Shown one piece after another: positions 29,646 to 31,658 of a DNA stretch of 64,000 nt. Under the pieces are notes generated by a model. That model saw only the letters and a program-made list of their open reading frames with translations, had not been told where the DNA came from and made no database searches. Source of the stretch: Ilumatobacteraceae bacterium (GTDB lineage Bacteria; Actinomycetota; Acidimicrobiia; Acidimicrobiales; Ilumatobacteraceae). How positions within the stretch are numbered: position 1 is the first letter of the stretch; the number at the start of each line of letters is the position of its first letter. The DNA lies in contig JAWPMO010000001.1 of the NCBI GenBank assembly GCA_033344875.1, positions 186,001-250,000 on the forward strand. Reading direction: 5' to 3'. A program made the translations under genes and the position numbers.

Positions 29646-30275
29646 TCAGATGTCGGGGCGGTCGCCGAACTCGGGCCGCTCGGTGCGGGTCCGCTTGAGC
29701 TCCCAGAAGCCCGGCACGTCCATCATGGCGGTCAGCGCGTCCCAGAGTTTGAGCGACAGGTCGCCCGGCGGGACCCGGGTGATCACGGGGCCGAAGTAGG
29801 CCTGGCGTTCGCCCTCGCTGTTGTCCATCGCGATGATCGGCGTGCCGATGTCGTTGCCGGCGAGTTCGAGACCGACGTCCATGCGACGACGGATCTCGTC
29901 GTCCCACGACTCGTCGTCGGCAGCCGCGGCGAGCTCCGGGTCGAGACCGAGGTGCTCGAGCATCTTCGTGAAGTCGGCGGTGTCGCGCTCGCCGTCGTGG
30001 TGCACGGTCGTGCCGGCCAGCAGGTACCAGCGCTGCACGGCGGACTCGCCGGCGTCGGCGCGGACCGCTTCCATCACCCGGAGCATCTGGTGCGTCTTGA
30101 ACACCGGGGCGTAGTTCTCGGCGTCCGGCTGGACGTCGTTCTTGAACATCAGGCTGATCGGTTGCCAGACGACGTTCAGATCACGGTGTGGTGTCACTTC
30201 GTCGACGACCCAACGGGCCGTCACCCAGCACCATGGTCAAATCGGGTCGACCCAGAATTCCACATCGGTAGCCAT
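29646..30275 (-). CDS. Rv2466c/DsbA-like thioredoxin-fold protein, probable selenoprotein (Sec13)
   Basis: Reading from ATG 30275 gives MATDVEFWVDPI, then TGA (30239-30237), then PWCWVTARWVVDE in the same frame, and on to a natural stop at 29646. The total is 209 codons. The family (mycothiol-dependent oxidoreductases such as mycobacterial Rv2466c, ~207 residues) has a DPLCPWCW active site here, so the TGA replaces exactly the first cysteine, giving UPWC. Other signatures are intact, including the GTPII cis-proline region and AYFGPVITRVPPGDLSLKLWDA. CATACT lies six bases before ATG 30275, placing the transcript start upstream of the TGA. A nonsense mutation or sequencing error is the alternative; without readthrough only an inactive fragment from GTG 30224 would remain. 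Confidence 0.8.
30214..30239 (-). promoter_or_regulatory. In-frame UGA with candidate bacterial SECIS hairpin
   Basis: On the minus strand, counting the U of UGA as 1, UGGG (13-16) can pair with CCCG (23-26) around the loop UGACGG (17-22). This falls in the window where bacterial SECIS elements lie. The stem is short and partly wobble-paired; longer outer pairing (GACC with GGUC) can be drawn but would include the UGA. No folding calculation was run. Confidence 0.4.
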
Positions 30276-30362
30276 CGTCCGAGTATGACGTCTTGCGCGC
30301 GCAATTACTCCTCGGAGGTCATCGGTCGGAGGCCCGGGGCGCACGGATAGCCTGGGCGAGCC

Positions 30363-31658
30363 ATGTCGCAGCGCTTCTACGTCGAGACTCTGGGGTGTCC
30401 CAAGAACCAGGTCGACTCCGACAAGTTGATCGGGACCCTGCTGGCAGACGGCATGGAGCCCACCGACGACGCGTCGGTCGCCGATCTCGTCGTCGTCAAC
30501 ACGTGTGCGTTCATCGACGACGCCCGCAAGGAGTCGGTCGACACGATCCTGGCGCTCGACGAGCAGCGGGCCCCCGACGCGCGGCTGGTCGTCACCGGAT
30601 GTATGGCCGAGCGGTACGGCGCCGAGCTCGCCGAGGCGTTGCCCGAGGTCGACCAGGTCGCCGGGTTCGGCGTGCCCGTCCACCAGCGGACGGCGGGCAA
30701 GACCCTCATCCCGGTCACCTCGGCACCACTGCCCGAACTCGACCTCCTCAACCTGCCTCGACCGAAGTCGATCTCACCGTGGGCGTACGTCAAGATCGCC
30801 GAGGGATGTGACCGGTCGTGCGGGTTCTGCGCGATCCCCAGCTTCCGCGGCCCGCAGCGCAGCCGTGACATCGCACAGATCGTGACCGAGGTCGACGAGC
30901 TCGCCGCCCGCGAGATCGTGCTGGTGGCGCAAGACCTCGCCTCGTACGGCAAGGACCGCCCGGACGAACTCGGAGCGGGTTCGATCGTGCCGTTGATCGA
31001 AGCGGTCGCCGAGCGGACCGACTGGGTCCGCCTGCTCTACCTCTACCCGAGCGACCTGACCGACGAGCTGATCGACACGATCTGCGCGACCGAGGTGCCG
31101 TACTTCGATCTGTCGCTCCAACACGTCAGCAAGCCTCTGCTGCGGCGCATGCGCCGGTGGGGTGACGGCGACCGGTTCCTCCATCGGATCGGCGACATCC
31201 GCGCCCGGCAACCAGACGCAGCGTTCCGGTCGAACTTCATCGTCGGCTACCCCGGCGAGACCGAGGCCGATCACGATCAGCTCCTCGCGTTCGTCGAGGC
31301 GGCGCAACTCGACTGGTGCGGCTTCTTCGCCTACTCGCCCGAAGAGGGAACCCACGCCTACACGCTCGACGGCGCCGTCGAGCGCTCGTTGATGCACGAA
31401 CGCCTCGCCGAGCTGCGCGAGCTGCAAGACGACATCACGGCCGAGCGTCGCGACGAGATGATCGGGCGCACGGTCCGGGTGCTGGTCGACGAACCCGGCG
31501 TCGCCCGGAGTGTTCGAGAGGCGCCCGAGATCGACGGCGTCATCCACGTCGCGGCCGAACTCGCGGTCGGCGAGTTCGCCGACGTCCGGATCATCGATGC
31601 GCTCGGGCCCGACCTGGTCGCCGACGGTGGGGTGCTCACCGACGAGGACGACGACTGA
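30363..31658 (+). CDS. rimO: Ribosomal protein S12 methylthiotransferase RimO
   Basis: This 431-residue radical-SAM enzyme adds a methylthio group to an aspartate of ribosomal protein S12. The N-terminal UPF0004 domain begins ETLGCPKNQVDSD (Cys12) with further cysteines in VVNTCAF and VTGCMAER. The radical-SAM cluster motif gives Cys149, Cys153 and Cys156 (CDRSCGFC). A C-terminal TRAM domain starts near residue 365. GCPKN.VDS is the RimO, not MiaB, signature. ATG 30363 lies nine bases after TAGCCT (30348-30353). The stop overlaps the ATG of pgsA in ATGA form. Confidence 0.95.
   Translation: MSQRFYVETLGCPKNQVDSDKLIGTLLADGMEPTDDASVADLVVVNTCAFIDDARKESVDTILALDEQRAPDARLVVTGCMAERYGAELAEALPEVDQVAGFGVPVHQRTAGKTLIPVTSAPLPELDLLNLPRPKSISPWAYVKIAEGCDRSCGFCAIPSFRGPQRSRDIAQIVTEVDELAAREIVLVAQDLASYGKDRPDELGAGSIVPLIEAVAERTDWVRLLYLYPSDLTDELIDTICATEVPYFDLSLQHVSKPLLRRMRRWGDGDRFLHRIGDIRARQPDAAFRSNFIVGYPGETEADHDQLLAFVEAAQLDWCGFFAYSPEEGTHAYTLDGAVERSLMHERLAELRELQDDITAERRDEMIGRTVRVLVDEPGVARSVREAPEIDGVIHVAAELAVGEFADVRIIDALGPDLVADGGVLTDEDDD

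Follow-up and report, generated by a model that had tools for sequence, protein, structure and literature searches.

The window, a 64,000-nucleotide stretch of DNA, carries on its minus strand a reading frame (29646..30275) which, when an in-frame TGA is read as selenocysteine (Sec, U), encodes a protein of 209 residues (MATDVEFWVDPIUPWCWVTARWVV...GDRPDI) and ends with a terminal TGA at 29648-29646. Frame, profile and structure matches place its product in the Rv2466c-like (PF22234) family, very probably as a selenoprotein with Sec at residue 13. The internal TGA, codon 13 (30237..30239, minus strand), occupies the position of the first Cys of a CPWC motif and gives a UPWC redox motif (30228..30239, minus strand) in which, by homology, Sec13 would be the nucleophile and Cys16 the resolving residue. 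The initial annotation had described a TGA at codon 13 followed by PWCW and an intact family sequence, had placed this codon exactly at the first Cys of the motif, and had expected standard annotation to truncate the gene. We obtained the same reading, with U13 at 30237-30239 replacing that Cys; the standard-code ORF starts at GTG 30224 and comprises 192 residues from which the active site is lost. With Cys at residue 13, the calculated mass of the protein is 23.8 kDa.

The -10-like box CATACT that had been noted six bases before ATG 30275 was found at 30287-30282 (30282..30287, minus strand). All seven same-genus copies displayed (L046-L052) have a CANACT box at a distance of 6-7 nt from the start, and L068, the single more distant copy displayed, has none; judged from sequence, the box points to an mRNA that is leaderless or nearly so. 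When a loose -10-like pattern was looked for in the final 30 nt, 55 of 98 Sec loci had one, which says little. Upstream of the box lies a perfect 12-bp palindrome, TTGCGCGCGCAA (30293..30304), also present in L048 and L051, with one match against 0.21 expected when up to one mismatch is allowed, and present in 19 of 100 shuffles; a role as an operator is possible. As a family-wide operator the palindrome was rejected, because few loci have TTGCN4GCAA within 110 nt (Sec, 3 of 98; Cys, 2 of 121). The context is completed by a divergent gene on the plus strand (30363..31658), which from its sequence we take to be rimO-like; a tblastn match to its product lies in the fetched flank of all eight same-genus TGA copies.

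Family and fold of the protein

The initial annotation had assigned the protein to the Rv2466c family, and this assignment was upheld by three lines of evidence: (i) in Pfam, PF22234 matches with 142 bits (cut-off 27) over profile positions 1-180 of 180, and PF01323 also passed (29.8 against a cut-off of 25.6 bits), with UPWC as the UxxC motif, (ii) a sequence search of solved structures matched 4WKW, 4ZIL, 4NXI and 5XUR with E values between 8e-39 and 3e-37, and (iii) in a fold search with an AlphaFold2 model built from 18 sequences with Cys in place of Sec (mean pLDDT 94.6), each of the ten best PDB matches is a chain of Rv2466c or of the M. leprae homologue (TM 0.75-0.83, normalised by query length; 4zil, 4nxi, 4wkw and 5xur on top). 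DsbM and FrnE rank far under Rv2466c in this search, the Deinococcus FrnE structures reaching only E values of about 2e-6 to 5e-6 at 14-15% identity. No NCBIfam match was found for the protein.

The protein shares with Rv2466c/Mrx2 (PF22234; 4NXI, 4ZIL, 5XUR) the family, the fold, the CPWC position and the Gly-Thr-Pro loop, at 33-35% identity in fold alignments; unlike Rv2466c/Mrx2, it starts the motif with Sec and has its own SECIS-like hairpin. The CP[W/F]C position is kept with U for the first C, and the nucleophile role is assigned by homology. Gly-Thr-Pro 144-146 (29838..29846, minus strand), which we take to correspond to the cis-proline site of the thioredoxin fold, is GTP in 95 of 95 complete Sec loci, and G144 and P146 are invariant in the 18-row alignment.

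The organism's own genome encodes two further family members, with CPFA and CPYA and no internal stops, and the Sec copy therefore has the sole two-residue redox motif among the three. Six PF01323 matches were found in the same genome, none with an internal stop; because the window gene is itself not among these six, a PF01323 search can miss DsbA-type Sec genes.

Codon 13 and the selenocysteine machinery

Homologues were drawn from same-genus, family and order whole-genome samples and from named contigs. In 220 homologous loci, codon 13 is TGA in 99, TGC in 88, TGT in 33 and any other codon in none; the loci from the contig scan, in which one of six peptide patterns contains the Cys, are biased to Cys copies. 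Thus, alignment of relatives revealed TGA/TGC/TGT mixtures exactly at this codon. The Sec motifs are UPWC (93), UPFC (4), UPFA (1) and UPWA (1); the Cys motifs are CPWC (65), CPWA (30), CPFA (15) and a few others. The 220 loci include some genes fetched twice: L013 is the same place as L046 and was dropped from the tree and the SECIS counts, reducing the TGA loci from 99 to 98, and merging copies identical over the first 90 nt reduced them further to 94.

Within the genus, nine of ten genomes have a match and eight have a TGA copy. In the order sample, 126 of 397 genomes have a match with an E value no higher than 1e-38, and 83 carry a TGA copy with the codon read from sequence; partial copies without codon 13 (G495, G364) were left unclassified. 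A phylum sample of 396 genomes, which is an even draw with at most seven scored candidates per genome and no census, yielded 73 matching genomes, 50 of them outside the order. Codon 13 is Cys in 27 of 27 outside-order loci read, including every one flagged with an internal TGA; the remaining ones list no TGA, and none was seen at the site in the 50 outside-order matching genomes of this sample. All TGA copies read come from the window's order or from named Acidimicrobiales/Acidimicrobiaceae contigs, and among named relatives, Acidimicrobiales MAGs come closest (L097, 85% identical). Two CPWC relatives (L135, L136) lie in contigs labelled Desulfobacterales MAGs and thus not actinobacterial, reflecting either transfer or mis-binning.

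The genome holding the window is closed (4,968,626 bp, one contig). It contains selA (397 bits, cut-off 268), an adjoining selB (294 bits, cut-off 242), a tRNA-Sec with the anticodon TCA (66.6 bits) and selD (367 bits, cut-off 125), the latter with one in-frame TGA of its own at the catalytic GAG-U-GCK. Like the selenoprotein gene of the window, the gene for SelD, an unrelated enzyme that is itself part of the Sec pathway, has its Sec codon at the catalytic site. The statement in the initial annotation that this organism makes Sec is thus borne out by the presence of selA, selB, selD and tRNA-Sec in one genome; the absence of all Sec genes, which had been named as counter-evidence, is not what the machinery search returned. 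The Rfam search gave no relevant match at selA or at the selenoprotein gene. The Sec genes are scattered, with tRNA-Sec (G000:C1:3932758) about 90 kb from selA-selB (3841727) and selD at 4687734.

Across the order sample of 397 genomes, selA is present in 80 of 83 TGA-carrying genomes vs 157 of 314 others (Fisher 2e-17), and the three TGA genomes without selA are 73-76% complete. Outside this sample, a same-genus draft that is 93% complete (G079) holds a TGA copy but gave no hit for selA, which departs from this pattern.

In a tree of 215 of the 220 loci, calculated with codon 13 excluded and with L013 and loci with less than 480 nt past the codon omitted, 12 Sec/Cys changes are needed and at least 7 are forced by well-supported branches, by a quick method and with long branches in the tree. 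One genome (G347) holds both forms (L279 with Sec, L161 with Cys). Locus L155 (G012:C1, about 127.2-127.9 kb) has TGC and CPFC and keeps 8 of 8 stem pairs of the hairpin described below, as the only one of 69 CPxC loci; its sister L172 (G064), from the same genus and 81% identical over 187 residues, has TGA. As far as can be judged from sequence comparison, L155 probably reverted from Sec to Cys recently and retains its SECIS as a fossil.

Two Sec copies, L171 (UPWA, G037) and L173 (UPFA, G008), belong to the CPxA subfamily and are 38-39% identical to the window protein. Their motifs offer no resolving Cys, and both genomes have selA, so that L171 and L173 suggest a Sec enzyme lacking this second residue. 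Both copies have a hairpin with a GGU loop and the same spacing as in the UPxC copies. Since three CPWA relatives (L034, L045, L204) have a hairpin similar to that of the UPxA copies, the case for a SECIS element is weaker for UPxA than for UPxC, and for the same reason the reading of the UPxA codon as Sec draws mainly on the codon and the machinery.

A SECIS-like hairpin downstream of the UGA codon

Downstream of the UGA, the window gene has a bacterial SECIS-like hairpin (30204..30222, minus strand) with an 8-bp stem and a GUU apical loop (30212-30214) located 22 nt past the UGA; two extra pairs under a bulge extend it to 30201 and 30224. With the U of UGA counted as offset 0, the stem comprises pairs 17-35 to 24-28 and the loop positions 25-27. 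The bSECIS model, as given in a 2026 survey of prokaryotic selenoproteins (PMC13188914), has a loop of 3-9 nt, a stem of 4-16 bp, an MFE of at most -7.5 and a G in the first two loop positions, 16-37 nt from the UGA. The window hairpin conforms to this model with its 22-nt distance, 8-bp stem and GUU loop, and so does the pentamer at 24-28 in all 94 Sec sequences (CGUUG in 73, AGGUG in 17, CGGUG in 4).

The initial annotation had pointed to folding of the bases after the TGA. For the single sequence this does not yield a significant signal (z -1.0; 29 of 200 shuffles fold as well); across relatives, compensatory changes are found. Because the window hairpin alone is not significant, the case for a SECIS element is a comparative one, and the permutation and shuffle tests on which we report here ignore the shared ancestry of the sequences. 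When codons were permuted within each amino acid and column, pair 20-32, in which both bases are wobble bases, was standard in 93 of 94 Sec sequences against 75.1 under the null (0 of 1000 permutations reach 93), with GC, AT, TA, CG, GT and TG all seen; pair 17-35 was standard in 85 of 94 (null 77.8, 0 of 1000). Eight of the ten stem pairs tested had no clear excess, and six of them cannot vary under the null; pair 22-30 gave no clear excess over the permuted codons (107 of 1000), and pair 15-38 falls under its null. In 37 Cys homologues (distinct CPWC/CPFC loci with an identity of 44% or more), pairs 20-32 and 17-35 showed no excess over chance.

At least seven of the eight stem pairs are formed in 86 of 92 UPxC vs 1 of 37 CPxC sequences, the single CPxC case being the presumed fossil of L155. 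Similarly, the mean fold energy of the 94 Sec hairpins is -12.3 kcal/mol for native sequences vs -7.3 for synonymous recodings, the corresponding values for the Cys homologues being -5.2 and -4.6 kcal/mol. In the hairpin-encoding segment TARWVV, conservation of Thr, Arg and Trp is common to Sec and Cys copies; the Ala and both Val residues hardly vary among Sec copies but do so among Cys copies.

Proposed mechanism and relation to known systems

The selenoprotein reading put forward in the initial annotation is supported by the Sec machinery, the mixture at codon 13, the co-occurrence with selA and the covarying hairpin. Combining these data, we conclude that the product of the gene is very probably a small thiol-redox enzyme in which the catalytic Cys is swapped for selenocysteine by way of an internal stop codon; taken alone, the insertion of Sec at codon 13 is close to certain. 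According to PMC8280269 and PMC11841060, Rv2466c is SigH-induced and mycothiol-dependent and protects against oxidative stress, and PMC8280269 assigns Cys19 as its nucleophile and Cys22 as its resolving residue. By homology, Sec13 would be the nucleophile and Cys16 the resolver. We suggest the following scheme, the first step of which is modelled on known Sec biology and the following three on the family: (i) SelB bound to the hairpin would deliver Sec-tRNA at the UGA, so that all 209 residues of the UPWC protein are made, (ii) Sec13 would attack disulfides or mycothiol-mixed disulfides, and possibly nitro compounds, in the way of Cys19 of Rv2466c, (iii) Cys16 or mycothiol would resolve the selenenyl-sulfide, and (iv) mycothiol and its reductase would restore the selenol. 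The expected gain would be a faster or more oxidation-resistant nucleophile for the repair of oxidative-stress damage. The mycothiol linkage and a nitroreductase activity of the window enzyme are carried over from the family and would apply here by analogy. We regard this entire chain, from an Rv2466c/Mrx2-family oxidoreductase with a Sec nucleophile and SelB-hairpin insertion to its mycothiol linkage, as probable.

The genome encodes an MshA-like protein (L010 16480-17727; 392 bits, cut-off 462) and an MshC-like protein (L194, G000:C1:492944-494041; 422 bits, cut-off 485), each of which scores best with the family it is named after; the MshC-like protein is also just over the CysRS cut-off (342 vs 340), and a separate gene in the same genome scores higher as CysRS (400). 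Because MshA and MshC remain below curated cut-offs and the MshC-like protein passes that for CysRS, mycothiol use by this organism is likely, though unproven, on the genomic data. The mycothiol genes of the window's group may escape current curated models. Alternatively, the protein could be an Rv2466c-family selenoprotein that is not mycothiol-linked and that works with thioredoxin or another thiol, or on another substrate such as in peroxide or metal(loid) chemistry. The same sub-threshold scores and CysRS match speak for this possibility, as does NCgl2478 of Corynebacterium, which takes electrons from thioredoxin as well as from mycothiol, albeit about 120 times better from mycothiol, as stated in PMC8280269. 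Against it stand the best-family status of MshA and MshC and the fact that in sequence and fold the protein comes closest to Rv2466c, which is described as mycothiol-dependent, and to the M. leprae homologue of Rv2466c. The two readings are mutually exclusive, and it is on account of the CysRS match of the MshC-like protein that we hold the mycothiol-inclusive reading to be probable instead of firm and the other to be rather unlikely, with a real share of the probability.

Three further alternatives dispense with selenocysteine. The first is a pseudogene or a sequencing error, the TGA having arisen by damage to, or misreading of, a Cys codon of an ordinary CPWC enzyme. The two stop-free Cys paralogues in the genome would make a loss tolerable, but 99 of 220 loci, belonging to many genera, share this TGA at this codon, TGA copies co-occur with selA and the covarying hairpin is typical of them. 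Moreover, between the window gene and L047 (85% identical) 75 codons differ, 44 of them synonymously, and base changes are distributed 22/13/60 over codon positions 1/2/3; the frame is therefore under protein selection, and we consider this explanation extremely improbable. The second is that the true product is the 192-residue ORF from GTG 30224, without a redox motif, and that the TGA ends a short upstream ORF. This is what a standard ORF call returns; however, the residues upstream of the TGA are conserved family sequence in the alignment, the product would have neither the nucleophile nor the model's first strand, and every non-TGA homologue read has Cys at the site, leaving next to no room for this product. 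General UGA readthrough or reassignment, e.g. to Trp or Cys without any Sec, has nothing in its favour among our results and a negligible probability, given that the gene itself terminates with TGA, that tRNA-Sec (UCA anticodon), selA, selB and selD are present, and that every homologue read without the TGA has Cys there.

Returning to the selenoprotein reading, it may be extended to the family. In this model, a Sec-containing Mrx2 is spread across one order with active Sec/Cys exchange, the Sec nucleophile is resolved by Cys or by mycothiol, and the UPxA forms run a monoselenol cycle; we see the arguments for and against this extended model as evenly balanced. In UPFA and UPWA, which have no resolving Cys in the motif, mycothiol alone would close the monoselenol cycle. 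Such a cycle, if true, would be the mycothiol analogue of glutathione-dependent selenoenzymes.

The initial annotation had taken the protein for a variant not known to be described, and this is true in part. The 2026 survey (PMC13188914) lists 119 prokaryotic selenoprotein families, including DsbA-like form 1 (PF01323, UxxC) and form 2, so that the UxxC DsbA-like class is already known. No Rv2466c, PF22234 or mycothiol entry occurs anywhere in the 119-family table, and the counts for mentions of Rv2466c and of mycothiol in this source are zero. We found no description of Sec in the Rv2466c family in the open-access literature, subscription papers being outside the scope of the search. Because the UxxC DsbA-like class is listed in PMC13188914, the novelty is limited to the Rv2466c subfamily and is not the principle of a UxxC DsbA-like selenoprotein. 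The window protein shares UxxC in a DsbA-type thioredoxin fold and PF01323 with DsbA-like form 1 and probably differs from it as a member of the Rv2466c subfamily. A DsbA-like selenoprotein set from the Sargasso Sea was assigned to COG2761, according to PMC1088965. Among Cys-containing enzymes, NCgl2478/NCgl2339 of Corynebacterium glutamicum (DsbA-Mrx1 cluster, CPFC) belong to the same CP[F/W]C motif class as the window protein; UPFC relatives of the window gene exist, and NCgl2478/NCgl2339 have Cys and not Sec. According to PMC8280269, NCgl2478 uses its first Cys as the nucleophile and is reduced preferentially by mycothiol.

Reading the gene as a selenoprotein would correct a gene that standard ORF calls shorten. 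The difference in variability of TARWVV between Sec and Cys copies means that this family shows how an RNA signal can constrain a protein, and the closely related Sec and Cys orthologues constitute a natural experiment on the advantage of Sec over Cys in one enzyme. If the mycothiol-linked reading is true, these proteins would represent a selenium-dependent branch of mycothiol redox biology in actinobacterial stress defence.
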